From: Methanooceanicella nereidis
Lineage (GTDB): Archaea > Halobacteriota > Methanocellia > Methanocellales > Methanocellaceae
Direction: 5' to 3'
Assembly (NCBI RefSeq): GCF_021023085.1
Contig: NZ_PGCK01000009.1
Span: forward strand, 1 to 64,000
Length of the DNA: 64,000 nucleotides
Below, in pieces: positions 27,925 to 53,860 of this stretch (its first letter is position 1; each line of letters opens with the position of its first letter). Below the pieces are notes generated by a model. The model had not been told where the DNA came from, did not search any database, and saw only the letters and a list, made by a program, of their open reading frames with translations. Both the position numbers and the translations under genes were made by a program.

Positions 27925-28810
27925 ATGTACCATAAAGCGCACGAAGGCGAACAAGGTACACCAGTTTCCACCACGAAGGGCGCAAAGGCGAATAAGGACC
28001 ACAAATTTTTTAAGTATATGTTAATCTTCTAAAAAGTCCTTTGAGTACCCTCGAGCCCATAGAGCGCTCCCATGAAAAACTTTTAGATGGTTTCTTTTAA
28101 AATGGACATATTACATCTGTTCTGTGATTGAGTTCTGGCGTTGTTCCTGTCGGATGGCAGGTAGACACGTAACCTCACAGAAACACGGAAACACAAATTT
28201 TTTTATATGATCTTTTAAGATCTCTAAATCACAAAAAATGCTCACCAAATCACAAAGGCTCTAGTATCACCGTCAACGCGCTAAAGTCTCAAATGCACGG
28301 CTTAATGCTCGAAGTGCTCTAATCCACTAACGCTAAAACAAGACCCGAAGATTCTCCAAGGCACTAAAATTTAATATCCCGGTTTGTGTATCCCTGATCC
28401 CATCAAGGATTATATCGATCATGTAAGCGTCAACCGTGCAATTAAATTTTCGTGCCCTTGGAGAATCTTCGGGTCTTGTTTTAGCGTTGGTGACTTAGAG
28501 AGGTTGGTGCGTTGAGCCGAGCGTTAGAGGTGTTAGAGCATTGACGGTGATACTAGAGCCTTTGTGATTTGGTGAGCATTTTTGGTGCTTTTTGAGCTCT
28601 TAAAATATCATATAAAAAATTTTTGTGTTTCCGTGTTTCTGTGAAATTACGTGTCTACCTGCCATCCGACAGGCACAACCATAAAAAACTTCATCTTAAA
28701 GACCGGGTAAGTACGACACGTTCTTTCATTCTTAAAACCTGAGCAATACCCCGCTCATCAAAGATTTCGTGGTGAAAAATAGTGGACCTTCGAGCCCATA
28801 GAGCGCTTTA
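27925..28810. repeat. Giant imperfect palindromic element A (non-coding)
   Basis: The core 28146-28673 is a long inverted repeat. CCTGTCGGATGGCAGG at 28146 pairs with CCTGCCATCCGACAGG at its right end; CACAGAAACACGGAAACACA pairs with the complement near 28640; CTAGTATCACCGTCAACGC (~28261) and the ACAAGACCCGAAGATTC segment (~28338) pair with 28464-28555. The central spacer is ~70-80 bp. Outer parts carry the AAGCGCACGAAGGC module and AT blocks shared with copies C and D. An 18-bp direct repeat (TCGAGCCCATAGAGCGCT) is at 28051-28068 and 28790-28807. The whole matches element B at 53 kb in reverse. Short frames inside are not conserved, so it is DNA- or RNA-structural, probably mobile. Confidence 0.88.
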
Positions 28811-28818
28811 CAATGAAC

Positions 28819-29061
28819 TTAGTCTTCTGACGGCAGTACATCTTCACGGCCGCAGAGAACATCATCAACTACTTTTAAGTTAACAAGAAGATCATCCAGC
28901 GTCGTTAGCATTGAACCCAGACTGTCAGAACTAACAGTGGTGATGACTCTGCCTTTTTCAGGCACTGTCTTGATATTTTCCAGGTTGTCCACGCTGATGG
29001 CGCGGGAAGTGAGTTCCGCGTTATCGGTCTCGATGACCATATACGCCCTACACTTTACCAC
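28819..29061 (-). CDS. pcc1: KEOPS complex subunit Pcc1
   Basis: An 80-residue Pcc1 homologue, the small dimerising subunit of KEOPS, which makes the universal t6A modification on ANN-decoding tRNAs. The typical pattern of an N-terminal strand, the central helix and the C-terminal SLGSMLTTLDDLL helix is visible. Length is standard. Its start overlaps the 3' end of the DHH gene by 14 bp, and both lie downstream of the S15 gene in one operon of translation-linked functions. Confidence 0.85.
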   Translation of the reverse strand: MVKCRAYMVIETDNAELTSRAISVDNLENIKTVPEKGRVITTVSSDSLGSMLTTLDDLLVNLKVVDDVLCGREDVLPSED

Positions 29062-30346
29062 TTAACTGCCCCCTCACAATCCTGTTGACAGCGTTAAGGA
29101 ACTCCAGTTCCTGGCCGGCGGGTATTGAAGCGCCGGACGCAATGTTATGGCCGCCGCCGTTGCCTCCAACGGCTTTTGCGCCCTCGCGGACCGCGACTGA
29201 AAGGTCCAGGCCGTTCCTTATTAGCTCTGCAGTGCCTCTTGCCGATATTTTGATCTTTCCATTCTCCCGGTTAAGGACTATGACAGGCTTATCCGTCATT
29301 ACATAGCGGATAACCGTCGAGGCTATGGCACCGGTGACATCGCTGCTTTCTATATCGATGTAACGTAGAGAGCCCATATCTTTTATACGGCCTATTGCGT
29401 CGCTAAGGGCATCCAGGATCTGCCGGGAATAGTCAAACCTCTTTGACTCTGCTTGGGCCATAGCGGACTCGTCTCTCAGGCATATCGACAGCCCCAGTGC
29501 AGGCTCATCCATTTTGCCGCATGAATTAACCGTATTAGTAAAATCGTAAATATCTTTAATGAGTTCCTTGTTCAGGAGATAAACGTCCCCGAACAACGCC
29601 TCTAAAGAATCCGGCGGGGATCTTTTAAGCAGCATTTGGGATAGCGCGCTGCTGAGACGCTTAAGGTCTTCACCGTTGAGCGTCTCAATCTTTCCGGATA
29701 GTTGCAGTTCGCTTAAAAATTTCACGGTATCTTTGTGACTTCCCGAAAAATCAAAATAAGGATCTATGGAATATTCAAGGACTTTATCAAGGTCCCCTCT
29801 GCCCAGCTTTAAGCCTTTTTCTACTGAGATCACGCCGCTTTTGATCGCTTCGTCTAGAATGTCCTTGTTGGGACCGATCATCTTTTGCTTATCGCCTATG
29901 GCGCCGGATATCGCAAGTCCTGCCAGGTCTACGTTGTCCCCGAGTATCCTTGCCAGAGAATAGGTGACGCCGGAAGCGGATACCTCTATCGCACCGTCCA
30001 GTCCCAGCATGTGAGGATTTACCTGAATGTTCTTATGCTCGCCATGAGGGACGTGATGGTCAAGGATCACGGCATCGAACATATTTACAATATCGGGATG
30101 CCCGGAACCCATGTCACAAAAAATGACGGGCTCTGACGGATCGAGCTTATCGATGATAGAATGGTCAAGGTTGCTGATAATGGTCGCTTGAAAATTAATG
30201 TTAAGGCGCTGTAAGGCCTGACATATAATTCCACAAGCTGTGATCCCATCAGCATCGTGATGGGACACAACTCGTATGAATTTATGTTCTTTGATCTTTT
30301 CCGCTGCAGGTTTCGCGATACCGGAAAGTTCAGCGAGCTTTGACAT
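29048..30346 (-). CDS. RecJ-like DHH/DHHA1 phosphoesterase
   Basis: About 432 residues of the DHH superfamily (archaeal RecJ/GAN-like). Metal motifs are SHHDADGITA (~32-41), CDMGSG (~92) and LDHHVPHG (~107), with a C-terminal DHHA1 motif in GGNGGGHNIASGASIP (~405). Such proteins are 5'-3' exonucleases and partners of the GINS-MCM replication complex in archaea. The open frame begins at 30427 inside the S15 gene; ATG 30346 is the true start. It sits between rpsO and pcc1, an arrangement I recall as common in euryarchaea. Confidence 0.88.
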   Translation of the reverse strand: MSKLAELSGIAKPAAEKIKEHKFIRVVSHHDADGITACGIICQALQRLNINFQATIISNLDHSIIDKLDPSEPVIFCDMGSGHPDIVNMFDAVILDHHVPHGEHKNIQVNPHMLGLDGAIEVSASGVTYSLARILGDNVDLAGLAISGAIGDKQKMIGPNKDILDEAIKSGVISVEKGLKLGRGDLDKVLEYSIDPYFDFSGSHKDTVKFLSELQLSGKIETLNGEDLKRLSSALSQMLLKRSPPDSLEALFGDVYLLNKELIKDIYDFTNTVNSCGKMDEPALGLSICLRDESAMAQAESKRFDYSRQILDALSDAIGRIKDMGSLRYIDIESSDVTGAIASTVIRYVMTDKPVIVLNRENGKIKISARGTAELIRNGLDLSVAVREGAKAVGGNGGGHNIASGASIPAGQELEFLNAVNRIVRGQLSGKV

Positions 30347-30365
30347 CGCGATCCCGTTTGAAGCC

Positions 30366-30824
30366 TTATCTCGATATAAGGATCTCTGCGGTTGCCGGGG
30401 AGTATACCCAGTCCATCGGTAATACACCGGATGCGTGGTAGTATTTTACGAGCCTTCTTATCTTAGACTCGGTAAGCTGTAAAGCTCTCTTGTTGTGAAG
30501 ATCGTGGTGGTTCTCGGCAAGGTGCTTGTGCAGGCCGATAGCCTTCTTTATGAGGTTCGTCAGGTCTTCCGGTAACTTGGGTCCGACGTTGTTTTCCTTC
30601 AGGATCTTTGATACTTTCTTGCCTGTGACCTGCTTTATGTCAGGAACGCCATACTTGTCCCTTAAAGTTATGCCGATCACGCTGGTCGGAACGTTCTGGG
30701 ACGCCATGCCCGTAACTAACTTCTCTACTTCTTCCTTCTTCATTGTTAACCATGCGGGAGAGGCTTTCCTTACAGGCTTTGTTGATTTTGCCCTTCCCTT
30801 TCTGCGAGTATGCATTTTAGCCAT
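30366..30824 (-). CDS. rpsO: 30S ribosomal protein S15
   Basis: A 152-residue archaeal/eukaryal-type S15, larger than the bacterial form because of its basic N-terminal extension ([17 protein letters not shown]). The RNA-binding core helices and the family-typical [20 protein letters not shown] stretch are intact. The ribosome site GAGGG lies 6-7 bases upstream. It is the first gene of an operon with the DHH phosphoesterase and pcc1. Confidence 0.95.
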
Positions 30825-31280
30825 AATAACCCTCTAATAATCTTAAATTTTTTAATATCTCTGTATAGTGATGAATTTACAGTTCAATACGTGGCGAAGA
30901 TGTAGTTTAATATGTGGCCTAGCATATATAATTTTTGCCAGAGAACGAGCAATAGGACCAATACCGGGACATAATTTTATCATACATGCCGGGTCATTAT
31001 GCTGATCACGTTTATACGACTATGAATTCTAAGCTGTGTATCCAGTAGCTCACTTGTGCGTACGATCATTGTCGAATATTAATGTGAAGTAATACGCTGC
31101 ACATCGATATGATACGCTACCTGCCCGACCATTAACATACTACACGACAATAAATGTTTTAACCATCATACGGGACACTGCACCGGGTTGACAAACGTGA
31201 AAAGCAGATGGAATATTGGAGAGCCGGGATATTACCTGGCTCATTTCCTGTACCCCCTACTTGAAGCGGACAAAAATAGC
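30825..31280. other. 456-bp intergenic region without a gene
   Basis: It lies upstream of rpsO and downstream of the agmatinase gene. AT-rich sequence near 30840-30860 fits the rpsO promoter. The rest has mixed composition, a few loosely similar TACG/ATACGCT-like words, and short reading frames with no family resemblance or ribosome site. I see no RNA gene. Confidence 0.45.
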
Positions 31281-32159
31281 TTATATATTTTTAGCCTGCT
31301 GCATCGACTTCCATTTCGCCGCTATGAATTCCCTGATCAGCTTTGCGCCAAGGACGGATGTCACGTCGCCGCTATCATATTCCGGCGATATCTCCACGAC
31401 ATCAAAGCCCACAGTTCTCGGTGCGAAGTGCCTGATGACGGTCCTGACCTGCCTCGGCGTCATGCCGAAAGGCTCAGGCGTCCCCAGACCAGGAGCATAT
31501 GCCGGGTCGATGGCATCCATATCAAGTGAAAGATAGATCCTGTCACAGCCAGCCAGATAGCTATCGGCTTCCTCAAGGATCGAATCTATGCCCATGGAAT
31601 CTACCTGGTTCGCGGTGAATACTTTAATGGAGTCATTCTGTCTGATATAGTCCCATTCTTCCTTCGGGCCGCTCCTTATGCCTATCGAGACATATTTATC
31701 GGCCAGGTCCTCGATCACATGCCGCGATACGCAGGCATGGCTGTGCTTGACGCCGCCATATTCCGGCCTCAGGTCACAGTGGGCATCCATTACGACGAAC
31801 CCTATCTTTTCATTGTAGGCTTTAACGCAAGGATAGGTAAGCGAGTGCTCTCCGCCCATCATGATGGGTATTTTGCCCGCTTTCACTATCTCCGAAGCGC
31901 GCTCGTACACGACCTCGAGAGTCTCATCCACGTTGACATAGGTATCACAGTCGCCCATATCGTGTATGGGGACGTCATCCAGATCGACGTCAAGGTCCTG
32001 GTTATATGTCTCGAAGTTGTAAGATACTTTCCGCATAGTCATCGGCGCCCATCTTGAACCCATCCTGAAGGATGAGGTCCTGTCGTAGGGCACGCCGTAG
32101 ATCACGAACTCCGCTTCGTCAAATGACTCGTTCGCCTCGGCGAAAAGATTAAGGTTCAT
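31281..32159 (-). CDS. speB: Agmatinase (arginase/ureohydrolase family)
   Basis: A 292-residue ureohydrolase. All binuclear manganese motifs are present: GGEHSLT (~103), DAHCDLRPEY (~123-132; the canonical form is DAHxD) and SLDMDAIDP (~211-219). The Glu in VEISPEYD (~258) binds substrate. It should turn agmatine into putrescine and urea. It lies 20 bp downstream of the aIF5A gene in the same operon, and aIF5A needs a polyamine (spermidine- or agmatine-derived) for its hypusine-type modification. The function is therefore strongly supported by context. Confidence 0.92.
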   Translation of the reverse strand: MNLNLFAEANESFDEAEFVIYGVPYDRTSSFRMGSRWAPMTMRKVSYNFETYNQDLDVDLDDVPIHDMGDCDTYVNVDETLEVVYERASEIVKAGKIPIMMGGEHSLTYPCVKAYNEKIGFVVMDAHCDLRPEYGGVKHSHACVSRHVIEDLADKYVSIGIRSGPKEEWDYIRQNDSIKVFTANQVDSMGIDSILEEADSYLAGCDRIYLSLDMDAIDPAYAPGLGTPEPFGMTPRQVRTVIRHFAPRTVGFDVVEISPEYDSGDVTSVLGAKLIREFIAAKWKSMQQAKNI

Positions 32160-32179
32160 AGTTTTTTATCCCTGCAGGA

Positions 32180-32563
32180 TCATCTCATCTGGATCTTCAT
32201 CTTGCCCATGCTGGAGATGTACTGTATCTCCTCACCCTGGACGACCTTGTCCTTTAAGTCCTCTGGTATTGGAAGCTCGAAGGTCGAGAAATCAGAAGTA
32301 TCCATGAGCTGGGCTACGTCGCCCGATATGGAAAGTACCTGTGCGGACTTTCTCTCTACGACCGGCACATATATCCTTGCGCTGACCGGCTGGACAATGG
32401 ACCTCTTGGATCCGTCGAATATGCCGACTGCATCAACTCTTGCCTTTGCTGCACCGTGCTTTCCGGGCTTGGAGTGCTGGACCGACACTGCGACACATGG
32501 TTCTTCATCGATCAGTAAGTACTTTCCTTCCTTAACGCTACCCAATTCTGATTGCTGCTTCAT
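32180..32563 (-). CDS. Translation factor aIF5A
   Basis: A 127-residue archaeal IF5A. The modification loop SKPGKHGAAK (residues ~31-40) holds the Lys that becomes deoxyhypusine or hypusine. The N-terminal SH3-like and C-terminal OB domains are complete. It helps ribosomes through difficult peptide bonds. The ribosome site GGAGG precedes the ATG. The following gene encodes agmatinase. Confidence 0.95.
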   Translation of the reverse strand: MKQQSELGSVKEGKYLLIDEEPCVAVSVQHSKPGKHGAAKARVDAVGIFDGSKRSIVQPVSARIYVPVVERKSAQVLSISGDVAQLMDTSDFSTFELPIPEDLKDKVVQGEEIQYISSMGKMKIQMR

Positions 32564-32947
32564 TGAAATTTCCTCCGTGATTTATTAACATTAATAAGCA
32601 TTGAATAGATCTAATATCCAATTTCAAAGGCCTTGACCACTCTTTTAATAACAGTAGACAAAGCCGGCTAGGCTAACTATTAACACAATCCCGTATAAAT
32701 ATTTAATGCAAGTATCGATAAGTAAGCCCATAAAGAAATAAGTTTAGCGTCTTATTATACTTTTATCGCAAATGTAGCAAATAACTGGATATCCATTAAA
32801 TACTTAAAAAGCGGAGAAATATAGAGTTCGTCCTTTGATCGATAAGGGAGCTTTAATCATAAATACCTCAATCCAAATGTTAAACCGCAAAGAGAATATA
32901 GCCCATAAGCGCAAAATATTTACCAGCACTAAATCAAGGTTACTTTC
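32564..32947. promoter_or_regulatory. Divergent promoter region, aIF5A / NAD kinase
   Basis: A 384-bp AT-rich region between diverging genes. TATA-like stretches occur near 32690-32710 (minus strand, for aIF5A) and near 32870-32920 (plus strand). A ribosome site AAGGTT precedes the NAD kinase ATG. No other gene or structure was seen. Confidence 0.5.
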
Positions 32948-33766
32948 ATGAAAGCGAATTCGGTCGGCATTATCACAAGGCTTGATGTTAAGGACCCGAA
33001 GAACATCATTTCGTCCTTCGTCAAGCACTTATCATTTAAGGTAAAGATATTTGTCGATCCGGTGACTGCCGCAATGACAGGCATAAAGGATGTCACCGAG
33101 GTCGATGAAATGTATGCTGACCTTATCCTTATTTTCGGCGGCGATGGCACGATATTGAGAACTTTACAGCTACTCCCGAAGCCGACACCGATACTCGGGA
33201 TAAATATGGGCGAGGTAGGGTTCTTAACAGTGGTTGACCCGGAAAGCGCTTTTTACATGATCGATGACATTATCGAGAACTTTGAGATCGTGGAAAGGTC
33301 AAGACTTGCCGTAAAGCTGAACGAGTTCGAGCTTCCGAGCGCGATGAACGAGGCGGTCATCATAACCTCCAGGCCGGCAAAGATATCGAGGTTCAGGATA
33401 TATATTGATGATAAGCTTATGGAAGATATTCGCGCCGATGGTGTTGTCATAGCTACGCCGACGGGCTCTACTGCCTATGCCATGAGCGCGGGAGGGCCGA
33501 TAGTCGATCCCCGTGTCAACGCTTTCATAATCGTGCCGCTCGCGCCGTACAAGCTCTCGGCAAGGCCGTGGGTAGTGCCCGCATCCAGCGAGATAAGGCT
33601 GGAGCTGTTAAGGGAAGAAAAGGAGTCTATGGTGGTCATCGACGGGCAGTACACCGCAAATATCACGAAAAACGACGTACTGACTTTTACGAAATGTGAG
33701 TCGCCAGCCATTTTCGTAAAGTTTGGCGACAAATTCTATGACCTGGTCAGGGAGAAACTAACATAG
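32948..33766 (+). CDS. nadK: NAD kinase
   Basis: A 272-residue NAD kinase that makes NADP from NAD. The signature FGGDGTILRTL (~residues 64-74) and the second motif ADGVVIATPTGSTAYAMSAGGPIV (residues ~164-187) are intact. The size fits the archaeal enzyme without the inositol-phosphatase domain found fused in some thermophiles. It is a single gene, transcribed divergently from the aIF5A operon, and converges on the Bax1 gene. Confidence 0.93.
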   Translation: MKANSVGIITRLDVKDPKNIISSFVKHLSFKVKIFVDPVTAAMTGIKDVTEVDEMYADLILIFGGDGTILRTLQLLPKPTPILGINMGEVGFLTVVDPESAFYMIDDIIENFEIVERSRLAVKLNEFELPSAMNEAVIITSRPAKISRFRIYIDDKLMEDIRADGVVIATPTGSTAYAMSAGGPIVDPRVNAFIIVPLAPYKLSARPWVVPASSEIRLELLREEKESMVVIDGQYTANITKNDVLTFTKCESPAIFVKFGDKFYDLVREKLT

Positions 33767-33831
33767 ATCATCATGAGATAAAACGGACCTTAATAAGCCA
33801 GGTCGTTTCAAATTATGAGCGTTTTTCCGTA

Positions 33832-35373
33832 TCACTTTTTATTTATCACTGCGCTTTCAGGATCAAGGCCGCTCCACTTTACAGTATAACCAAGCAGCTT
33901 TAATACAGGATCGGCAGCAGATATGCCTTTTGAGTTGATGGTCTTTACAGCTTCATGATACGGCATTGTGTTTTTAAGGGACGTTTCCAGTCCTTTAATC
34001 AACACTTTACTGACGAGCTCATCGCCGGCGATCACATATCCGTTAATCCCGGGGCTCTCCGCATATATCCTGATCGAGTCCGAGGGGATATGTTCCCTTT
34101 CTGCAATAACTGCGACAGAGATGACATCACCTGTAAGAGTTAATTCCATGCCCGCAATTTTTTCCAGCCCCTTTCTTATCAGCACATCATCAAACTCTTT
34201 TAGCCGGTCCAAAATTTGTTTTAACGGTATCTTTTTATCAAAGAATATGACGTCCCCGATGATATCTTTTAGAGCATCGCATGCCATCTTTGAATTTACT
34301 AGGACTATCAGGTTCTTATCCTTTATCTCATGGAGTTTTTCGGATTTTTTCCTGAGATAATCCGCTGTCCAAAAGCCGGCTATCTCTATGTATACTTTGA
34401 TTCCGTCCTTCTCAAGTAAAAAGTCGGGTATGTAAAGACGTTTTCCCGTTATCAAAGGCTCGGGTTCTCTTATTATGCTCCAGCCGGTGCCGGCGTTGAC
34501 GAACGATTCATAAAACCGCTCTTCTGGCTCACTGTCAAAACTAATATCCTCCTGATACATCAGGTCACCGAAAAGGTGTCGGCAGCCTTTTTCTGACATG
34601 CGGAAATGATATATGCGGGGCTCTCCGGAATAGTCCTTTCTAACGATGGAAGCTTCCATCTCCCATCCCGGAGCCATCACAATAAACGGCAGCAGCCTTG
34701 CTAAAGAGGTCCCATATCGTTCCGTCATTTTCAGGGCGGATACAGGGCCGTCTAGGGATATTTCAACACGGCCGTCCAGATATCTCGCATCATACATCAG
34801 GCCAAGTCTTTTAACGTTGCGTAATATGTCTTGATGGTTCCCTGATGCTGTGAATCTGAGATCTACGGCTTTAAACAATAATGTCTGAGCTATGGAAAGA
34901 TTATACCTGTATACCAACTCTGCAGGAGTCAAAGGCGTGAACTGTTTCAGAAGAAGCTCGTTCTCGAGATCGGCATACATGGACGCTTCGACTTCCTTTT
35001 CAGTCATTTCCAGTATTCCTGCAGCTTCTTTTATGGCCGATGACCTCTGTGCATCTGATATCACAGGGAATTGCCTGGCTGCTACTCTGAAGACGGTCTG
35101 GCGTATCTCTACGGGGTCCAGAGAGCTTTCCACGACAAGCTCGCATCTTCTTTCCAGCAGCGCGACAAGGCCTCGTACAAGCCGGTAGTCGAATCCCTGG
35201 TCCTCCATTTCCTCAAGAATATCCTTCAATTCGCCCAGCTTCTTTCCCGTGCTGTCTTTGAAGATGCCGATCATATCACCGGCAAGCTCAAGGTACTCTT
35301 CCGAGGGCTCGATGAAGATAGGGGATATTTCGCCTCTCCATACCTTTGTCTTTAAAAGTTCCGACGGCAGCAT
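33832..35373 (-). CDS. Bax1-like nuclease (DUF790), partner of XPB
   Basis: A 513-residue protein of DUF790. In archaea the family is known as Bax1, an endonuclease that binds the XPB helicase and cuts near DNA bubbles. The nuclease-like region is at about residues 315-400, with Asp in YIPDFLL and Glu in IEIAGFWT, a PD-(D/E)XK pattern. The start codon overlaps the XPB stop by 1 bp, so the pair is translated together, as in other archaea. It would act in nucleotide-excision repair. Confidence 0.88.
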   Translation of the reverse strand: MLPSELLKTKVWRGEISPIFIEPSEEYLELAGDMIGIFKDSTGKKLGELKDILEEMEDQGFDYRLVRGLVALLERRCELVVESSLDPVEIRQTVFRVAARQFPVISDAQRSSAIKEAAGILEMTEKEVEASMYADLENELLLKQFTPLTPAELVYRYNLSIAQTLLFKAVDLRFTASGNHQDILRNVKRLGLMYDARYLDGRVEISLDGPVSALKMTERYGTSLARLLPFIVMAPGWEMEASIVRKDYSGEPRIYHFRMSEKGCRHLFGDLMYQEDISFDSEPEERFYESFVNAGTGWSIIREPEPLITGKRLYIPDFLLEKDGIKVYIEIAGFWTADYLRKKSEKLHEIKDKNLIVLVNSKMACDALKDIIGDVIFFDKKIPLKQILDRLKEFDDVLIRKGLEKIAGMELTLTGDVISVAVIAEREHIPSDSIRIYAESPGINGYVIAGDELVSKVLIKGLETSLKNTMPYHEAVKTINSKGISAADPVLKLLGYTVKWSGLDPESAVINKK

Positions 35374-36719
35374 TATTTATCCACCGCCTCGTTTCTTCTT
35401 CTTGAAGAGCCTTCTTCCATCGTGCTTTTCGATATTATCTCATACAGGACGGCTTTTTTATCGCCCTTTTTCCGCAGTATACGTCCTAGCCTCTGTATGA
35501 ACTCCCTCTTACTGCCGCTTCCGCTCAGGATGACGCCTACATTAGCGTCAGGAACGTCGACGCCCTCGTCAAGCACTTTTGACGTTACGAGAACCCGATA
35601 TTCCCCGGTCCGGAACTTTGACAGGTTAGCTGTCCTTTCATCCTTTCGTGTGGTATAGGTGATGAAAGGTATAAGGAACTCCCGAGAAATGCGATAGACC
35701 AGGTCATTATGTTCCGTGAATATCAGCACCCTGTCATCCGGGCCCGAATGCTTACTGAGTATTTCCGACAGGGTCTTAAGTTTGGACGAGGAATTTAAAG
35801 CAGTAAGCCTTGCCCTGTGCCTGGCCAGGATGGCATCTCTAGCGGCCCTGTCCCTTCCGCTTCTCATGACAAGTCTCTCAAAATCCCGGGGAGTCCTGAG
35901 TATGATATTATTATCGCTCAGGTATTTCCTGTAAGCGTCATAGTTCGTGCGGTATTGTTCCTCTTCATCGGGGAGTAATTTTACATGGATACGCTTCAGG
36001 TCAAAGTTCGCGAGGTGGACGCCCTCCATGCTCTCCACGCTAATCTCGAAAATCTTACCGCCTATCAGCCTGGAAAGCTCTTTGTGAAGACCATCAGGCC
36101 TTTCATAGGTGGCCGTCAGCCCCATCCGCGCGGGACATGCGAACATCTCGGCTATACTGGAATATCCCGGCGAAGGTAAATGATGCGCTTCGTCAAAAAC
36201 GATAAGCCTGAACCTGTTCCCGAGCTCTGATGCCCGGATATATGCCGTATCATAAGTCGCGACCGTTACAGGGCCCAGCTTATGCTCATCGCCGCAATAA
36301 GTTCCTGCCTCGATGCCGAACTCATCCTCGATCTTCGCCTTCCACTGGTCTAGTAGATCCAGCGTCGGCACTATGATTATAGCAGGATTTGATATGGAGA
36401 CCGCTTTTAATGCAATAAGGGTCTTTCCGGAGCCTGTCGGTAATACCAGGGCACCCCATTTTTCAGCCCTCAGCCATGCTGCGATAGCATTATCCTGATA
36501 ATCGCGAAGGACCGTATTCATCCTGAGCTCCGGGCAGGGCACCGGGTCGAGGACATCGTCCTTATATGAAAAACCGGATGCGTCCAGGTATGTTTTAATA
36601 TCCCTGTAGTACAGGGCCTGGGCACGGTACGCTTCCACCCTTTTGTCCCAGAATGAGTTAGGGACCTTGATACTCCCCTTTATGAGAATTGTGCCCTTAT
36701 CGAAGGTAAGATGGATCAT
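35373..36719 (-). CDS. xpb: XPB-type DNA repair helicase
   Basis: A 448-residue superfamily 2 helicase. The first domain carries the Walker A motif LPTGSGKT (~95), DEAH (~175) and the XPB-specific RED-like region. The second has LDEGVDVPD (~375) and the arginine finger in QRLGRILRKKG (~410). The length and domain order fit archaeal XPB. It is the first gene of the XPB-Bax1 operon. Confidence 0.92.
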   Translation of the reverse strand: MIHLTFDKGTILIKGSIKVPNSFWDKRVEAYRAQALYYRDIKTYLDASGFSYKDDVLDPVPCPELRMNTVLRDYQDNAIAAWLRAEKWGALVLPTGSGKTLIALKAVSISNPAIIIVPTLDLLDQWKAKIEDEFGIEAGTYCGDEHKLGPVTVATYDTAYIRASELGNRFRLIVFDEAHHLPSPGYSSIAEMFACPARMGLTATYERPDGLHKELSRLIGGKIFEISVESMEGVHLANFDLKRIHVKLLPDEEEQYRTNYDAYRKYLSDNNIILRTPRDFERLVMRSGRDRAARDAILARHRARLTALNSSSKLKTLSEILSKHSGPDDRVLIFTEHNDLVYRISREFLIPFITYTTRKDERTANLSKFRTGEYRVLVTSKVLDEGVDVPDANVGVILSGSGSKREFIQRLGRILRKKGDKKAVLYEIISKSTMEEGSSRRRNEAVDK

Positions 36720-36822
36720 TGTCTATAAAAAGGTAGGAAATTAAATAAATTTTCTGTAATGTAATATTCGACGATCATGAGAATCGTTAATATTTTGAAA
36801 TAAAAGGTATGGATTAAAAAGA

Positions 36823-37290
36823 TCAGTCAAGGATTAGTTTCACTTTATCCCCTATCTTTATCCCGTGTTCCTCGCAAAAACCGCCATTGACCTCTATCAC
36901 ACATATACATTCATCACATGGCTCCAGCGGTGTAGTATCAAAGGGTACTGCCTTATATTTTATATCTACAACGGTCCCGTCATCGTTAATATAGATCATA
37001 TCAAGCGGGATCAAGGTGTTTTTCATCCAGAAGGCGTGCTTTGCAGGATAGTCAAAAACGAATATCATCCCGGAATCGCTATCCAGGTAAGTACGATTCA
37101 TCAGCCCTTCCATCCTTTTCTCGTGAGTGTCGGCAACTTCCAGGCTTATTTTAACAGGCTTATTATCCGAAGTGTATACTACGGCATTAGGAGTGACGGA
37201 CTCCCATCCATATGAGACGAACTGAAACGCCATTATCAATATAATAATTCCAATAAAAGCGATAACTATCACTTTCAGAGAGTTTTTCAT
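36823..37290 (-). CDS. Membrane-anchored DUF192 protein
   Basis: A 155-residue protein with a single N-terminal helix (residues ~7-25) and a DUF192 domain outside the membrane (about 40-155). The family signature is visible as RMEGLMNRTYLDSDSGM and HAFWMKNTLIPLDMIYI. The role of DUF192 is unknown. A Cys pair (CDEC near residue 125) is unusual, and a third Cys follows. It is a single gene. Confidence 0.88.
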   Translation of the reverse strand: MKNSLKVIVIAFIGIIILIMAFQFVSYGWESVTPNAVVYTSDNKPVKISLEVADTHEKRMEGLMNRTYLDSDSGMIFVFDYPAKHAFWMKNTLIPLDMIYINDDGTVVDIKYKAVPFDTTPLEPCDECICVIEVNGGFCEEHGIKIGDKVKLILD

Positions 37291-37331
37291 AATAAGATGT
37301 ATCTTATCAATGGATTTAAAGCTTAACGATA

Positions 37332-43804: not shown

Positions 43805-43925
43805 TAATATTCTCCTCTATATGTTTATGTCATTAAGATACTGATCAGTTATAAACGAACTAAATCCAGTATACGTGGCTAGTATAGTATAAAGGTTACT
43901 ATGCTATCGGGTATAGATACGAAGC

Positions 43926-46065: not shown

Positions 46066-46503
46066 ATATTGACCTCCACGTCTCATGAACGTTAAACCTG
46101 ACCTTATTTATAATTTTCCTAAAGAGGTGAAAGAAAAATTTTGATATTTAAAGAATTTAGCACTTACGCAATCCGTTTTTAATTTAATAAATTAAAAAAT
46201 ATACAAATAATTTTAAGTCGATATTATACAATTTATAAAAATCACATAACATAATTATTTGTTATTATTACAGATATCGAATAGTCTTAATTGATTTTAT
46301 GACACGTTTTAAAAATTATATTTTTAATTTTATTAGATAGATCCTTTCACCTATCATTTTAATTACCAGGCCAATGTATGCCTTTCACATCATAAATACA
46401 ATAACATGACCGGAGCGTTTCCAGGATAATATAATATCGAAAGGTTTAAATTTTACACAATAATTCAGATTAGAAAGCGTTTATCTTTGTGGGGCAAGTA
46501 ATC
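46066..46503. promoter_or_regulatory. Divergent, very AT-rich promoter region of ablAB
   Basis: About 430 bp, extremely AT-rich over 46130-46350, between diverging ablA and the propeller/protease gene. TATA-like words occur on both strands. In other methanogens ablAB responds to salt, so regulatory sites may lie here, but I see no clear inverted repeat. Confidence 0.5.
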
Positions 46504-48507
46504 ATGAAAAGATCATCGGCACTTATTCCGGTAATAATTTTTATAATCTTATTCTCATGGGTATCAGTGGCATATAGCCAGGCAGTTCCTGAAAAGGCAT
46601 GGGACCTGACCTTCGGCGGGCTTTACGAAGACAGGGGTTTCGGCATAGTAAAAGCACCTGACGGGGGTTATGTCAGTGTCGGAACGACAGTCAAGGACAG
46701 CAGCAGCTCTACTGACATATTTATTTTAAAGACAGATAGCGACGGGAACATTATATGGAACAAGACAATAGGCGGGCCCAGGCATGAGTGGGTTTATCAT
46801 CTCATCAGGGATTCTGACGGAAATTATGTGCTGGCGGGCACCGCCATGTCCTCTAAACCCGCCGCCACCTGGGACGTCCTGTTAATAAAATTCGACGATA
46901 ACGGGAACATCATCTGGCAAAAGGAATATGATACCGACTATATCGAGGTAGCTTTTAACGTCGCAGAAACTTCGGATAATAATTACGTTGTCACGGGATA
47001 TATCTACCCGGATCCCCGTAACAACAGAGATTCTCAGGTCATTTTGATAAAGGTTGATAAGAACGGCGACCAGATATGGAAAAAGACCTATGGCGGAAGT
47101 TCGATCGACTGGGGTAAATACATAGTACAGACCTCTGAAGGAGGATTCCTCATCACCGGCTGGTCTGAGTCATTCGGCACAGGGGACCGTGACGTATATG
47201 TCATAAAGACAGATAAGGATGGCAACCTTGTGTGGCAGGAGAACTATGGAGGTACTGCCAATGATATGGGATACTGCGGTATCGAGACATCGGACGGATA
47301 TCTTATCGGCGGGCACACGGCATCCATGGGAGCGGGCATGGATGATATTTACCTCCTGAAGATAAGGAAGAACGACGGCAGCGTCATCTGGGAAAAGACA
47401 TACGGGGGTGCCGGTACCGATGTCGGTTGTACCATTATGCCCGTTAAAGATCATTTCATAGTAGCAGGAAGTACTTCCTCAAAAGGGAACGGAGGTTCGG
47501 ACTATTACGTGTTCAGGATTGACGGGAACGGCAACCAGATATGGGACCTCACATATGGTTTTGAATACGAGGACGCATGCGCAGGTTTCTATGCGGATGA
47601 AAATACGATAGCCCTTACCGGACTAAGTCGTCCCGATAATACGACAGCGAATGCGCTTCTGGTGAAATACGGACAGGAACAAGAAACGTCCGCCCCTGTC
47701 GATCCGGTCGCACCCGTCGCGGCAGTTGTGGTAGGTTCGAGCGTAGGGTTGCTGGGGCTATTATGGGGTAAGATATCGGGCGCGTTAAACATAGAGGGTA
47801 GGTTATCGGATATCTTCAAAAAGGTATATGACTTCGTTTTCGGATACGTGAAAACGCACGTTAAGGCGCTATTATTCCGAAAGGAGTCACAGATGAGGAA
47901 AGTCCAGGCAACGCAGAGACATGCCTTTTTATTAGGTTTTTCCTCATATGAACTGCTCATTTTTGCCATAGCGTCAGTGATGCTGGGCATTTCATACATG
48001 ATAGCTAAAGGCGAGGCGCTTCTGCCGAACTTTATAGCAATATATGTGTTCACAGGCGGAGTGGCGCTGATACTTCACGATCTGGCACACAGGTATTTCG
48101 CACACAAATACAGGGCTGTGTCCGAGTACAAGTTCTGGGGACTGGGCACCATAGCCATGTTCCTGACCGCGTTCTTCTTCGGCATAGTTTATGCCCTGCC
48201 TGCCAGGACCGTGATCAATAACCAGAAAGACCTAAAGCAAAATGAACTGGGCACCATATTCCTCGCGGGACCCGCAGTGAGCTTCGTCATCGCACTGGTA
48301 TTTTTGGCCGCGTCAGCGCTCGGCGGGATATTCTGGGAGATAGGAATGCTGGGATTCTCGATGAACCTGCTGTCCGCCGTATACAGCCTTATGCCATTTG
48401 ACCCGATGGACGGGAATAAAGTATTGAAATGGGATAAGGTAAAATGGGGAGCGATATTCGTCCCCGTGCTGGTAATATACCTGATCATAAAGATCTTTAT
48501 GCCGTAA
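46504..48507 (+). CDS. Seven-bladed beta-propeller fused to a site-2-protease-like (M50) membrane domain
   Basis: About 667 residues. A signal peptide (~5-27) is followed by about seven repeats of ~50 residues, each ending in an IW-x-K-x-Y-G-G type unit, making an extracellular propeller up to about residue 395. A hydrophobic helix, a short linker and an M50 peptidase-like membrane domain follow. The zinc motif is HDLAH (~525-529), in which Asp replaces the catalytic Glu of HExxH; the third motif DPMDG (~633) is present. It may be a propeller-sensing intramembrane protease, or an inactive one. The open frame extends to GTG 46489, but ATG 46504 follows GGGG. Confidence 0.82.
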   Translation: MKRSSALIPVIIFIILFSWVSVAYSQAVPEKAWDLTFGGLYEDRGFGIVKAPDGGYVSVGTTVKDSSSSTDIFILKTDSDGNIIWNKTIGGPRHEWVYHLIRDSDGNYVLAGTAMSSKPAATWDVLLIKFDDNGNIIWQKEYDTDYIEVAFNVAETSDNNYVVTGYIYPDPRNNRDSQVILIKVDKNGDQIWKKTYGGSSIDWGKYIVQTSEGGFLITGWSESFGTGDRDVYVIKTDKDGNLVWQENYGGTANDMGYCGIETSDGYLIGGHTASMGAGMDDIYLLKIRKNDGSVIWEKTYGGAGTDVGCTIMPVKDHFIVAGSTSSKGNGGSDYYVFRIDGNGNQIWDLTYGFEYEDACAGFYADENTIALTGLSRPDNTTANALLVKYGQEQETSAPVDPVAPVAAVVVGSSVGLLGLLWGKISGALNIEGRLSDIFKKVYDFVFGYVKTHVKALLFRKESQMRKVQATQRHAFLLGFSSYELLIFAIASVMLGISYMIAKGEALLPNFIAIYVFTGGVALILHDLAHRYFAHKYRAVSEYKFWGLGTIAMFLTAFFFGIVYALPARTVINNQKDLKQNELGTIFLAGPAVSFVIALVFLAASALGGIFWEIGMLGFSMNLLSAVYSLMPFDPMDGNKVLKWDKVKWGAIFVPVLVIYLIIKIFMP

Positions 48508-48529
48508 AGATGGCCTGCGCGGCCATCTT
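48507..48529. terminator. Shared hairpin terminator of convergent genes
   Basis: AAGATGGCC (48507-48515) pairs perfectly with GGCCATCTT (48521-48529) around a 5-base loop. It lies between the stop codons of the propeller/protease gene and the MFS gene, and so can act for either strand. Confidence 0.72.
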
Positions 48530-49742
48530 AAATGGCCGTGGGCCGGTCAACTTCGAATGATACTCTCGATCGCAGGAATATGAACCCGGCCATGCAAAGG
48601 ATAGCTATTCCGCCCAGTATGATCCACATCATCTCTATCCGGGCCGAGTAAAAGTCCATAAGGTACCCGCCAACCATCGGCCCGAACGCTATTCCGCCGT
48701 TGCTCAGCACTCCTGCCACGCTCATATATCTCCCCCGCATATCGGAGGGTGCCATCTGCGCGACGATAGCCATCGACGGCGGGGTGATGACCAGTTCTCC
48801 GACGCTTATGATGAACATCGCGAACAACAGCCCCCGGAAGTCCGTACAGAAGCCCACTATCACGAACCCGATCGCATAGATGGACGACCCTGCGGCCAGG
48901 GACGTCGTCAGCCTGAAATGTTCAAGATATCGCGCCACAGGGTACTGGAAGAATACTATCATAAGCCCGTTCAGCGAGAACAGCAGGCCTATCTGCGACT
49001 CCGGCACGTTTGCGAATATACCCGAATATGAGCTGAAGGTGGTCATCATCTGCGAGTATACCAGCATGATCAGTCCCGATACAGCGCAGAATATGATGAA
49101 TGGCCTGTCCATCCAGGGAGACATATGTTCCAGGCGTATCAACTTTCCCGTGATACCGGGCAGCGTATCCCTCAAGATCACCAGTGATATTATCATGTAT
49201 ATCCCGCTGGTGACGGCAGTCATGAAGAACATCAGCGAGTATGAGTGCATCGCCATTATTCCGCCAATAACAGGGCCTATGGCGAAACCGAGATTAGCTC
49301 CTATCCGGATCAGGCTAAAAGCCCCGATCCTTTCTCCGGGCCCTGCGACATCGGCCACCATGACCTGGGGGATGTTACGATAAAGCCCGCCTGCGATCTC
49401 CCTCAATGTCAACAATATCAGGAATTCATCGTACCCCGCATCGGAGATCACAGCGAACCCCAGCAGGGTAAAAGCTACCATCTGTATGAGCAGCCCTATG
49501 TTCATCATTATTTTTCGGCCGACACGGTCGCATAGTTCTCCGCTTACGACCTGAGTTAAGGCACCTGCCACTGCCGCCACCATAAGTGCGAACCCTACGC
49601 TTCCCATGGGTATTCCTTTATAGCCGTAGAGATAAAGCGAGATGAAAGGGTAGGCTATCGAAAAGCCGAAAGCGTTTATCAAAGAGCCTATGACAAGTAC
49701 CCAAATCTGCCTGTCATACCTCGAAAATATATTCCCCTTCAT
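48528..49742 (-). CDS. Major facilitator superfamily transporter
   Basis: A 404-residue protein with 12 predicted helices and the MFS motif A (GELCDRVGRKIMM, ~70-82) in the loop between helices 2 and 3. A similar loop after helix 8 is weaker. It resembles drug/multidrug efflux members, but the substrate cannot be read from sequence. It is a single gene with its own AT-rich promoter (49743-50034), shared divergently with the radical SAM/SPASM gene. Confidence 0.88.
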   Translation of the reverse strand: MKGNIFSRYDRQIWVLVIGSLINAFGFSIAYPFISLYLYGYKGIPMGSVGFALMVAAVAGALTQVVSGELCDRVGRKIMMNIGLLIQMVAFTLLGFAVISDAGYDEFLILLTLREIAGGLYRNIPQVMVADVAGPGERIGAFSLIRIGANLGFAIGPVIGGIMAMHSYSLMFFMTAVTSGIYMIISLVILRDTLPGITGKLIRLEHMSPWMDRPFIIFCAVSGLIMLVYSQMMTTFSSYSGIFANVPESQIGLLFSLNGLMIVFFQYPVARYLEHFRLTTSLAAGSSIYAIGFVIVGFCTDFRGLLFAMFIISVGELVITPPSMAIVAQMAPSDMRGRYMSVAGVLSNGGIAFGPMVGGYLMDFYSARIEMMWIILGGIAILCMAGFIFLRSRVSFEVDRPTAI

Positions 49743-50034
49743 AGGACCACGCTCTCAGTACAACGGCACACTAAGGATATAAAGGTTTGTATAATAATGA
49801 ATAAATACCATAAATATACACCATTGCCTGTAAAAAGGCATCATAGGCCGGATAATGCCATAAAATAATTTGCATATATGACCGGGTAAAATGAGACGTC
49901 AACAACAATATATAATAGATTTCATTCTACAATATTGAAAATCTACAACTTAATTAAGACCGGGACAAAAACTTATAAAGCAAGCGATATGTAAGTTTTA
50001 AATATAAAAAAGTGAATAAATATATTTACTGATC

Positions 50035-51138
50035 ATGATCCTTCCAAAGTTCGACAATATTATCCTGATGGGACAGCTAAAACAGTGGCAAGACAGGATC
50101 GATAAGGAGAGAAAAACGCATCCTTTAAAATATCTTTTCTGGGAGACCACGCGCAGATGTAACCTTGATTGCAAACATTGCGGCAGCGACTGCGGCAGCG
50201 ACAGGGACAGTGCTTCCGAATGCGAGTTAAGTACTGAAGAGATCAAAGGAGCTTTTAGATCGATAGCTGAGGATCTCGATCCTAAAAATATCATGATAGC
50301 GGTCACAGGCGGCGAGCCGCTATTAAGGAAGGACCTTTTTGAAGTGATGGGCTATGCCAGCGATCTCGGCTTTAAATGGGGAATGGTCACGAACGGGACC
50401 CTTGTAGACGAAGAGACCGTCAAAAAATGCAAGGAAGCCGGAATGAACACAGTAACGGTAAGCATTGACGGACTAAAGGACAGCCACGATCATCTAAGAG
50501 GCCGAAAAGGCTCTTTCGAGAAAGCAGTAAATGCTTTAAAGCTTTTCAAGGATGGAAAGTTCGAGGTAGTGCAGGCGACGACATGTGTCAGCCAGTATAA
50601 TATCAACGAGCTTCCTGATCTTTACGAGCTGTTCAAGGATCTCAATATAGACGAGTGGCGCATCCTGACAATAAACCCGATAGGCAGGGCGAAGGAAGAC
50701 CCGAAACTATTCTTGAAGCCGGCGCAGCTAAGGTCTGTCCTGAACTTTATCAAGGAGCGCAGGAAGTTTAAAGGCCTTAAGACCACTTTCGAAGAAGAGG
50801 GATTCCTCGGACCGGAGTTCGAAGGCAAGGTGCGCGACGGATTTTATTTCTGCCCCGCAGGAATTAACATAGCCAGCATACTGGCAGACGGTAGTATCGG
50901 ATCATGCCCCAACCTGAGCAGGGAGTACATACAGGGAAATATCAGGAATGACAGGTTTAAGGAAGTATGGGATAACGGCTTCAAGAAGATGCGGAACCTT
51001 GAATGGAAAAAGAAAGGCATGTGCGCAAAATGTGCCTGGTGGTCTTTCTGCCGGGGCAATAGCCTGCACCTCTGGGACTTTGATTCCGAAAGGCCTGTTG
51101 TATGCCACATACACTCTCTGGAAAGATCAAGCCCTTAA
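50035..51138 (+). CDS. Radical SAM / SPASM-domain enzyme
   Basis: A 367-residue enzyme with the cluster motif TRRCNLDCKHCGSDCGSD (~43-58), VTGGEPLL for SAM binding (~95), and a C-terminal SPASM domain with CPAG, CPN, CAKCAW and FCRGN cysteines (about 280-355) for auxiliary Fe-S clusters. Such enzymes modify peptides or mature quinohaemoproteins and hemes. No small peptide substrate is seen nearby. The start ATG at 50035 has no clear ribosome site, and a TATA-like AT block ~30-40 bp upstream suggests a short leader. A membrane protein gene follows 39 bp later in the same direction. Confidence 0.88.
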   Translation: MILPKFDNIILMGQLKQWQDRIDKERKTHPLKYLFWETTRRCNLDCKHCGSDCGSDRDSASECELSTEEIKGAFRSIAEDLDPKNIMIAVTGGEPLLRKDLFEVMGYASDLGFKWGMVTNGTLVDEETVKKCKEAGMNTVTVSIDGLKDSHDHLRGRKGSFEKAVNALKLFKDGKFEVVQATTCVSQYNINELPDLYELFKDLNIDEWRILTINPIGRAKEDPKLFLKPAQLRSVLNFIKERRKFKGLKTTFEEEGFLGPEFEGKVRDGFYFCPAGINIASILADGSIGSCPNLSREYIQGNIRNDRFKEVWDNGFKKMRNLEWKKKGMCAKCAWWSFCRGNSLHLWDFDSERPVVCHIHSLERSSP

Positions 51139-51177
51139 TGATTAATCTTATATTTTATAACCCCTAATTATCTTACG

Positions 51178-51519
51178 ATGTCTATCATCGACTTCTGTAA
51201 AAAGAACCGGATACCGGGCGTCATAAGCCAGGTATTGATATCAATTATCGCCCTCGTCGTCGTTACAGTTGAAGGGTTCGTTGGCTTCATCATATTAATG
51301 GCATACTATTTCCCGGGTCCGAAATACGGCCCGCCTCCGTCAGTCGATCCGACGCCGGTGCCGGATCAGGGGTTGCTGGGAGGAGCCCTGACCACTACCG
51401 AAGGGATAATAGGCGTTTTAGTCATCATTGCCTCGCTCGCGCTTTACGCCTGGGCTGTGCTCGGATGGGTATTCTGGGGCACCATATGGTACCTGAAGAA
51501 CAAAGAAAAGATAGAATGA
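51178..51519 (+). CDS. Two-helix membrane protein of unknown function
   Basis: A 113-residue protein with two hydrophobic helices (about residues 15-43 and 75-102) joined by a Pro-rich extracytoplasmic loop (FPGPKYGPPPSVDPTPVPD). The short N-terminus and the basic C-terminus (KNKEKIE) are probably inside. It may be co-transcribed with the radical SAM/SPASM gene (39-bp gap). No domain is recognised. Confidence 0.62.
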   Translation: MSIIDFCKKNRIPGVISQVLISIIALVVVTVEGFVGFIILMAYYFPGPKYGPPPSVDPTPVPDQGLLGGALTTTEGIIGVLVIIASLALYAWAVLGWVFWGTIWYLKNKEKIE

Positions 51520-51526
51520 TAAAAGG

Positions 51527-51541
51527 ATATGGCCGGCATAT
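51527..51541 (+). terminator. Weak terminator after the two-helix protein gene
   Basis: ATATG-gccgg-CATAT forms a 5-bp stem followed by TTTTATTTTAATTTTT on the plus strand. It lies 7 bp after the stop codon and before the convergent translin gene. Confidence 0.45.
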
Positions 51542-51543
51542 TT

Positions 51544-52173
51544 TTATTTTAATTTTTCCCCGAACCTTTCCATGGACTCATGCAGGTTTTTGATCTGTAG
51601 CGCGTTGGTCAGGTCCCCTCTTGTCCTTTCAATGATCGACCTGGCAACGTCTGTCTTTTTTCTAAGCCCCCGCGTTATCGCGTCCGGATAGTCGAACGAC
51701 ATCATCTCAGTAAAGAACTCATCCATGACTTCCAGATATTTTTCTCCCTCTTCAGGCCTGTCTTTCCGTATAAGGTCAAGTATGTGGCGCCTTAACTCCC
51801 CGGTCGCATCGCCGATACCGTTCAAATAGGCCGCATTGTCGACATTCAGCTCGTTGGGGCCGGGAACATTCTCCCCCTTCAACACAGCATATAGAATGCA
51901 GACTTCGGCAAACTCGGTCTGGGCATTGCCAACATATCCGGAATAGTATATTTCCGGGAAACCTTCTAAAGTCTCGTTGACCTCTTTGATGAGCTTCCTG
52001 GTCTCTTCTATCATCTCTTCCGCATTGCCCCATTCTTCTCGGTGTATCGCTTTTATCGCGTCTCCCGAGTAACGTGTGATCTTACGTGACGACGCGAGCG
52101 ACTCTTCTCTGGCATCATCCATCGCATCGAACTTTTCCCGGATCTTATCGCATATATCCTTCATATCACTCAT
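51544..52173 (-). CDS. Translin-family protein
   Basis: A 209-residue, highly helical protein of the archaeal translin family. The family forms ring-like oligomers that bind single-stranded nucleic acid and, with a catalytic partner, can cut RNA. The recurring acidic segments and the FPEIYYSGYVGNAQTEFAEV stretch match the family. Conserved Glu (around residue 100 and 125) could form the nuclease site. It is a single gene. Function in archaea is not established. Confidence 0.82.
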   Translation of the reverse strand: MSDMKDICDKIREKFDAMDDAREESLASSRKITRYSGDAIKAIHREEWGNAEEMIEETRKLIKEVNETLEGFPEIYYSGYVGNAQTEFAEVCILYAVLKGENVPGPNELNVDNAAYLNGIGDATGELRRHILDLIRKDRPEEGEKYLEVMDEFFTEMMSFDYPDAITRGLRKKTDVARSIIERTRGDLTNALQIKNLHESMERFGEKLK

Positions 52174-52225
52174 ATGGATTAATCGACGTTCATCGATATG
52201 AAAGATTTCCCCCGGAATAGGGATA

Positions 52226-52828
52226 TCAACGGATGCTGGCTACCCATTTCTTTAGCTCATGCTGATGGGCTATGATGTTTTCCATCCCTGCTTTTTGCAG
52301 TCCGGATACGAACTGTTTAAGATCTGCGGCAATATCGCTCACTCTCCTGTAATCCGCATAGCCCGACAATTGTAATCCGGCCCGGTCGACGTTGATCTTT
52401 ATCATATCGGTCCAGGTAAGGTCTTCCGGGAAAACGGTAACATAGTCATCTGCTGTCTGGTACCCGTGTAGCGTGCAATGCGCTACCGCCCTTAACTTAA
52501 GGTCATTATTGAGGTAGTTCGAATAAGTCTCTGTAAATATCTCTTCCTTCTTAGCCGTGTTTTTATCATATTTCCATTCTTTCAACAGCTCGCCGCCGTC
52601 ATAAAGCATGACACTGTCCACATAATGCATGGGCGGGTATCCGGTGTCCCTGTGCGTGATGACCAGCTTTATAATCTGATAGCTCCCCGCCGTGGCTACG
52701 TTAGTCGCTGGCGGAGGGGGAGGGGCACTGATGGCGATACCGGGGACGTTAGCTATTGCTGCCGGCCCGGAAGAACTTAACAGTATTGCAAGTAAAGCAA
52801 ATACAATAATGATGCTGCACAATCTCAT
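52226..52828 (-). CDS. Secreted desulfoferrodoxin/superoxide-reductase-like protein
   Basis: A 200-residue secreted protein. A signal peptide (residues ~1-26, ending in an Ala-rich stretch) is followed by a Pro-rich linker. The central domain resembles the iron centre II domain of superoxide reductase. AHCTLHGY (~110-117) corresponds to the CNxHG ligand motif, and GYPPMHYVDSVMLYD (~63-77) to the HPMxxxHYI region. Only part of the four-His set is obvious, so iron binding is uncertain. The C-terminal ~60 residues are helical. The neighbouring palindromic element lies upstream; no redox partner is adjacent. Confidence 0.62.
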   Translation of the reverse strand: MRLCSIIIVFALLAILLSSSGPAAIANVPGIAISAPPPPPATNVATAGSYQIIKLVITHRDTGYPPMHYVDSVMLYDGGELLKEWKYDKNTAKKEEIFTETYSNYLNNDLKLRAVAHCTLHGYQTADDYVTVFPEDLTWTDMIKINVDRAGLQLSGYADYRRVSDIAADLKQFVSGLQKAGMENIIAHQHELKKWVASIR

Positions 52829-52959
52829 CTGTAAAACCCTTATGATTGATTAAAATAGGCATTTATTAATCAATTAGCCATGAAAAACGTGAATATGATG
52901 CAGCCCCGGGTACTACTTGATGTATGTGCCATAAAAGCAGAGCATTATTAAATCAATTT

Positions 52960-53860
52960 TTTGTAACAAATACACCAAGGTGAACAATGTACACCAGTTT
53001 CCACCACGAAATCTTTGATGAGCGGGGTCTTGCTCAGGTTTTAAGAATGAAAGAACGTGTCGTACTTACCCGGTCTTTGAGATGAAGTTTTTTATGTTTG
53101 TGCCTGTCGGATGGCAGGTAGACACATAACCTCACAGAAACACGGAAACACAAAATTTTTTTATATGATTTTTTAAGGGCTCAAAGACCCCAAAATCTCA
53201 CTCACTAAATCACGAAGGGCTCTAGTATCACTGTCAATGCTCTAATATCCCTAACGCTCGGCTCAACGCACTAACCTCTCCAAGTCACCAACGCTAAAAC
53301 AAACCCCGAACATTCTCCAAGGGCACGAAGGTTTAACTGCACGGTTGACGCTTACACGACAAATATATCACTGCTATAGGTCAAGGGGAACACAGACCGG
53401 GATATTAGACTTTTGTGGTTTGGGGAATGTTCGGGTCTTGTTTTAGCGTTGGTGAATTAGAGCAGGTTGGTGCGTTGAGCCGAGCGTTTGGGCTGTTGGT
53501 GCGTTGACGGTGATACTAGGGCCCTTTGTGGTTTGGTGAGTAAATCTTTGAGATTTCGTGCCCTTAAATTCTAAAAAAAATTTTGTGTTTCCGTGTTTCT
53601 GTGAGGTTACGTGTCTACCTGCCATCCGACAGGAACAACGCCAGAACATCGATACCAGAACAAATGTTATATGCCCACTTTTAAAGAAACCATCTAAAAG
53701 TTTTTCATGGGAGCGCTCAACGGGCATAATGGAACACAAAGGACTTTTTTAGAAGATTATCATATACTTTAAAAAAATTTGTGGACCTTTTCGCCTTTGA
53801 GCGCTTCGTGGTGGGAGTTGGTGTTTCTTTGTTACCTTTGTGATTAGCTTGATTAAGTTG
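52960..53860. repeat. Giant imperfect palindromic element B (non-coding)
   Basis: This is the reverse-oriented relative of element A. The inverted core is 53103-53633: CCTGTCGGATGGCAGG on the left pairs with CCTGCCATCCGACAGG on the right, then CACAGAAACACGGAAACACA, CTAGTATCACTGTCAA and the CCCCGAACATTC segment pair in turn with the right half. Central spacer bases include TGCACGGTTGACGCTTACA, the complement of the same block in A. The right end has the AAAGGACTTTTTTAG and CGCTTCGTGGTG modules. Several frames up to ~98 codons exist, but none is conserved between copies. No gene lies between 52829 and 53905; 52829-52959 is plain AT-rich DNA. Confidence 0.88.

Follow-up and report, generated by a model that had tools for sequence, protein, structure and literature searches.

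Two long palindromes of Methanooceanicella nereidis as probable gene-less copies of a nuclease-encoding selfish element

Introduction

What are the two long palindromes that the archaeon Methanooceanicella nereidis carries, in opposite orientation, in the first 64,000 nucleotides of contig NZ_PGCK01000009.1 (forward strand; this whole stretch is called the window)? An original prediction, made from the letters of the window, had described them as non-coding elements of ~0.9 kb, A and B, and had offered a giant structured RNA, a non-autonomous mobile element or a chromosome-organising cruciform as explanations. Our computational follow-up, which covered the M. nereidis assembly (3.19 Mb, 41 contigs) and genomes of many phyla, finds that the mobile element fits best. 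We propose, with a probability of roughly 0.7, that A and B represent non-autonomous copies without a gene, resembling miniature inverted-repeat transposable elements (MITEs) or repetitive extragenic palindromes (REPs), of a small selfish element that encodes a nuclease. In its complete form, this element would consist of one gene for a stand-alone PD-(D/E)XK nuclease of ~134 residues, of the GxxExxY family, between long inverted arms. Most M. nereidis copies would have lost the gene by internal deletion, if we read the direction of change correctly, and would have been kept as long intergenic palindromes.

Results

A family of copies, three of them with a nuclease gene

A genome search in which the first 40 candidates were scored placed relatives of the palindromes at ~40 sites. 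At up to 3 mismatches, an arm motif matches the genome 140 times compared to 3 times for the reversed motif. These 140 matches amount to about 70 two-armed copies, scattered over the genome. We paired and aligned 61 complete copies, and the 58 with two full arms were used in the arm tests below; the spacer between the arms measures 45 to 61 nt in nearly all members of the family. The two-element picture was right about the pair itself but overlooked ~68 further copies and the gene-bearing ones. With ~70 copies in the genome, a mere local duplication of A and B is ruled out; A is closest to other copies rather than to B. The core stands in both orientations relative to the outer flanking modules (23 and 16 copies), suggesting past and repeated inversions between the arms.

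Three copies have a centre of 534 to 544 bp encoding a GxxExxY nuclease (contig C2 at ~45.4-46.5 kb, contig C5 at ~171.0-172.0 kb and ~178.6-179.6 kb). The frame is intact in one of them (134 aa; L107:13390-13791, minus strand) and broken by a frameshift or stop in the other two. The assignment of the protein is firm, with E values of 4.5e-36 for TIGR04256 (GxxExxY) and 2.5e-34 for PF13366 (PDDEXK_3), and scores of 123.7 and 118 bits that exceed the curated cut-offs of 35 and 22 bits, respectively. Searched against Pfam and NCBIfam, the gene matched PDDEXK_3/GxxExxY only, with no known transposase and no HUH tyrosine transposase. The arms of coding copies match a single consensus (identity of 0.89 to 0.93) as closely as those of gene-less copies do (mean of 0.895); the two kinds share their arms.

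The AlphaFold model of the protein shows a confident PD-(D/E)XK fold (predicted local distance difference test score of 96.2). Its top matches among solved folds, lambda exonuclease and the Cas4 protein SSO0001 (4ic1, 6m9k), are weak (E ~1e-3, template-modelling score ~0.5), as are further matches to a Holliday junction resolvase and to I-Bth0305I, and a sequence search for solved-structure relatives of the nuclease found none. Across 53 GxxExxY sequences, E37, E88, K90 and Y106 are invariant, and D78 (conserved in at least 90%) and Q102 nearly so. We take these residues to form a RecB/Cas4-type active site with a QxxxY motif after ExK.

Five palindrome copies, two of them gene-bearing, lie inside ~15 kb of contig C5 (165500-185000; L107). 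Two other GxxExxY genes of M. nereidis (L119, contig C12 at ~110.7 kb; L123, contig C2 at ~41 kb) are flanked by inverted arrays of ~40-43-bp tandem units, which partly resemble the CACGAAGG-type outer extensions of A and B. About 13 contig ends fall inside a palindrome copy or no more than a few hundred bases from one (contigs C2, C3, C5, C6, C7, C8, C11, C13, C15, C16, C18, C19 and C21), so that the family fragments the genome assembly and limits it.

The same layout in other lineages

The pattern recurs in two further lineages with unrelated arms. A closed relative genome of 2,957,635 bp, presumably that of Methanocella paludicola, carries a different arm family: three of its elements contain the gene, and at least 35 palindromes of ~340 bp lack it. 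Gene-less and coding copies agree in sequence as far as the edge of the gene (...CGGTTGACCAATAAACA-TT), which is what an internal deletion would leave. In Spirosoma oryzae, a single coding element, with arms of 185 bp, is accompanied by many palindromic relatives that lack the gene.

Beyond these cases, nearly every PF13366 gene in four Methanocellaceae genomes sits inside inverted repeats of 42 to 291 bp, and a scan of 84,980 species genomes yielded 80 GxxExxY loci from many phyla, 77 of them testable. At a cut-off of E < 1e-4, inverted repeats no more than 400 bp away enclosed 50 of these 77 loci. The controls gave 0 of 247 for shifted positions and 7 of 184 for neighbouring genes, and some of these genes pick up an arm that belongs to the GxxExxY element itself. 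A second GxxExxY set gave 24 of 28 enclosed against 1 of 56 controls, and archaea of the same phylum gave 9 of 18. Typical arms read ACC[AG]CAGAG-RCACAGAG... and point inwards; this CACAGAG-type motif pair flanks 29 of 75 GxxExxY genes and 2 of 246 controls, and the flanks show an 8-9-bp period. A clear 9-bp period was not found in the M. nereidis arms (best lag 8, z = 3.8), and the link to the bacterial 9-bp arrays thus rests on the shared gene and layout. Altogether, the link between GxxExxY and palindromic elements is well supported.

The main rival explanation turns the order around: the palindromic arrays would be primary, REP-like and either a product of replication slippage or maintained by the host, with GxxExxY a separate gene homing into their centres. 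Such homing could account for the cyanobacterium Baaleninema simplex, where gene-less solo arms (TTCACCACAGAGACACAGAGGACACAGAG) are common, at ~40 or more places, and for two divergent GxxExxY genes that share one position in Nostoc (L174 versus L319 and L320); I-Bth0305I, among the weak fold matches, is itself a PD-(D/E)XK homing enzyme. Nevertheless, arm families are lineage-specific, each long-arm family tested has gene-bearing members with the same arms, and the sequence bordering the gene position is retained in gene-less copies. We consider homing unlikely.

Anatomy of A and B

A and B lie where the original prediction placed them, and they exceed chance expectation by far. Their parts are as follows.

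27939..28139, no strand: outer extension of A, left; module with CCCATGAAAAACTTTTAGATGG, then CACGAAGG-type units (from the A-B alignment, flank listing and module counts)
28140..28384, plus strand: left arm of the palindrome A core; arm-model profile match; inverted repeats I1, I2 and I4
28385..28431, plus strand: central spacer of A; position of the GxxExxY gene in gene-bearing copies
From the right-hand end of the A spacer into the right arm: TGTAAGCGTCAACCGTGCA
28432..28679, minus strand: right arm of the palindrome A core; arm-model profile match
28680..28790, no strand: outer extension of A, right; reverse complement of the module with AATCTTTGATGAGCGGGGTCTTGCTCAGGTTTTAA (from the A-B alignment, flank listing and module counts)
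52986..53097, no strand: outer extension of B, left (BLAST match of 52986-53842 to A; flank listing)
53098..53346, plus strand: left arm of the palindrome B core; arm-model profile match
53347..53395, minus strand: central spacer of B; element reversed in orientation
53396..53639, minus strand: right arm of the palindrome B core; arm-model profile match
53640..53842, no strand: outer extension of B, right (BLAST match to A; flank listing)

Both cores are imperfect palindromes: that of A (28140-28679) has arms of ~245 nt around a model loop of 47 nt, and that of B (53098-53639) has a model loop of 49 nt. Aligned to its own reverse complement, A is identical in 452 of 535 columns, and A matches reverse-complemented B at 742 of 841 aligned positions (88%). 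The predicted outer ends were roughly correct, A-B homology running from ~27939 to 28790; the additional ~100-200 bp per side form an outer extension that is present in most copies, not all. The conserved central block also holds up, TGTAAGCGTCAACCGTGCA being kept in most gene-less copies. Folded end to end as single-stranded DNA, A reaches -217.8 kcal/mol compared to -56 +/- 4 for shuffled sequences (z = -38.5).

The arms of a copy do not evolve together

G28350 pairs with C28467 in A, and C53311 with G53429 in B, and this had been read as a compensatory change reflecting either selection on pairing or gene conversion between the arms. The difference exists, but it fails as compensatory evidence. 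Across the 58 copies, this position carries G on both arms in 2 (A and L058 only), C on both arms in 47, and a mixed state in 9. Within-copy arm identity is 0.843, compared to 0.846 +/- 0.003 after random re-pairing of left and right arms, 82% of the shuffles equalling or exceeding the observed value (p = 0.82), and M. paludicola gives the same outcome (0.772 versus 0.778, p = 0.87). Identical changes on both arms number 299, against 313 expected for independent arms, and on the element strand, G-T and A-C oppositions are similarly frequent (549 and 529), with no wobble preference. Taken together, these three measures give no indication of selection for pairing, and the permutation also rejects gene conversion within copies as a general process; covariation between the arms of a copy was tested for and not found. 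The supposed compensatory change thus favours neither RNA selection nor arm conversion.

The same results bear on the giant structured RNA. A very stable predicted fold and a constant core length would suit such a molecule, but the arm permutation, both-arm change counts and G-T versus A-C counts (no excess of G-U over A-C) are all negative, a search of Rfam at gathering thresholds gave no match, and a gene can replace the short loop in the centre. We regard an RNA as the least credible of the explanations considered.

Placement of the copies and states of one Nostoc locus

All 54 assessable M. nereidis copies are intergenic. They lie between convergent genes in 22 of 54 cases and between divergent genes in 6 of 54, compared to 14 and 36 of 108 element-free gaps, respectively. 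A lies between the convergent genes of seryl-tRNA synthetase and a DHH/DHHA1 protein; B lies between two minus-strand genes, one of them a radical S-adenosylmethionine wyosine gene, with no obvious control target downstream. This excess between convergent genes, the avoidance of promoters and genes, and the strong predicted hairpin could point to host-maintained cruciforms that organise the chromosome or regulate genes (e.g., terminators or sites of nucleoid proteins), with the nuclease gene as a passenger. However, purging of harmful insertions predicts the placement equally, the loops and flanks vary between copies, and the arms diverge without mutual compensation, which is unexpected under selected pairing; such a host function is, in our judgement, quite improbable.

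In Nostoc, a single gene pair was found with the whole element between its members (L174, L322, L323, L324), with a short palindrome only (L316 and L321, TCACGCAGAGACTTTCCGCTGCGCCTCTGCGTGA and a similar one), or with a divergent GxxExxY element (L319 and L320). This shows that whole and gene-less forms are alternative states of one locus, the direction of change being unpolarised. L317 and L318 retain at most a right-arm fragment that adjoins other inserted repeats, and in all Nostoc genomes read, the flanking genes are separated by the element, a remnant or other inserted DNA. The left arm region of the divergent element in L319 is tandemly duplicated.

GxxExxY genes occur on 8 of 72,556 plasmids, all predicted non-mobilizable, and in 0 of 50,697 phages; given this near-absence from plasmids and lack of phage carriers, the spread would have to use another route. 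A viral origin was rejected, as two scans of viral contigs contained no relative and phages contained none. One algal virus carries an annotated GxxExxY protein.

Discussion

We propose a model in which the palindrome, once its DNA is single-stranded, would extrude into a hairpin or cruciform, and the nuclease from an intact copy would act in trans on the hairpin or on hairpin ends. Repair or replication would then leave a copy at a new intergenic site, without target duplication. We infer that arm recognition by the nuclease, probably in hairpin form, drives the spread of the arms, the copying being repair-mediated.

Several points weigh against this model of a nuclease-driven element. Two of the three M. 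nereidis coding copies are damaged, which makes present activity uncertain, and about a third of the GxxExxY loci lack a significant inverted repeat at the threshold used. Loss of the gene from a palindrome and its gain by one are not polarised, and no palindrome-free empty site, nor any site devoid of every arm trace, was seen among the Nostoc genomes read. Likewise, no offset-consistent target-site duplication was found in 58 M. nereidis and 25 M. paludicola copies, whose ends are not sharply defined, so that short duplications might escape detection. To our knowledge, nucleases resembling Cas4 or lambda exonuclease do not transpose DNA on their own.

Decay of the target duplication in old copies, together with the MITE-like anatomy, would also suit relics of an unrelated, lost DDE-type transposon that had long terminal inverted repeats and received GxxExxY by a chance insertion. 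Yet the same gene stands at the same position in unrelated arm families of archaea and bacteria, and GxxExxY was the only protein gene observed in the centres of these families, which makes chance insertion very improbable.

A parallel pattern concerns the S23p (PF05635) four-helix-bundle genes, 25 of 30 of which lie inside inverted repeats in 8 bacterial genomes, compared to 0 of 60 controls (L325-L354); their arms consist of tandemly repeated 7-bp units (lag-7 autocorrelation, z = 19.5). Remains of S23p-type elements may account for the heptamer repeats that PMC4692102 reports from Nostoc and Xanthomonas. We give even odds to a broader reading, in which GxxExxY marks a widespread, undescribed, chromosome-borne class of selfish elements with a RecB/Cas4-type nuclease and, in bacteria, arrays of ~9-bp units, S23p marks a sister class with 7-bp arrays, and many intergenic palindromes and short tandem repeats are their gene-less remains. 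GxxExxY is a widely annotated family with hardly any literature, its mentions in the papers searched being incidental. No description of the association of GxxExxY (PF13366) with palindromic elements and the CACAGAG repeat was found in the literature searched, which mostly excluded subscription papers, so an earlier description is possible. Placing GxxExxY in palindromic elements gives the family a testable role and could explain where a large class of intergenic palindromes and of assembly-breaking CACAGAG-type repeats comes from; if true, it would define a new kind of mobile element with a PD-(D/E)XK nuclease as its sole protein.

Among known systems, the GxxExxY element resembles in its working the pair of REPs and their associated tyrosine transposase (RAYT), or that of MITE and insertion sequence, yet its enzyme is not the one that defines them. 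With REPs, bacterial interspersed mosaic elements and the IS200/IS605-related RAYT, it has in common a small enzyme gene between inverted palindromic repeats, many gene-less copies elsewhere, intergenic placement and, as far as our search shows, no target duplication. In contrast, the enzyme here is a PD-(D/E)XK nuclease and RAYT an HUH tyrosine transposase, and the arms reach ~290 bp, REPs measuring 20-40 bp (for REP/RAYT, general background and PMC2817692 and PMC3733652). As in MITEs, there are internal deletion derivatives, inverted ends in common with a coding element of the same genome and a high copy number; unlike MITEs, the element consists almost entirely of inverted repeat, showed no target-site duplication in our search and has a coding partner without a known transposase.

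The Rpn (YhgA-like) nucleases belong to the PD-(D/E)XK superfamily, and we know of none in palindromic arrays. They form a different family from GxxExxY, and the likeness is that of stand-alone nucleases tied to DNA movement, a link drawn for these recombination-promoting nucleases in PMC5350276. Cas4 and lambda exonuclease, of the RecB type, share the QxxxY motif after ExK and give the best fold matches of the model, but the scores are weak and GxxExxY has no CRISPR or Red context. Finally, the element resembles the intervening sequences of 23S rRNA, with another protein: there, too, a single small open reading frame (S23p) lies inside inverted repeats and has been called selfish, and in Coxiella GACAGAT heptamers precede it (PMC4990558). 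A search for PF05635 in M. nereidis and the genomes G001 to G003 gave no match, and the repeat unit is 7 bp in the S23p elements and 8-9 bp in the GxxExxY flanks.

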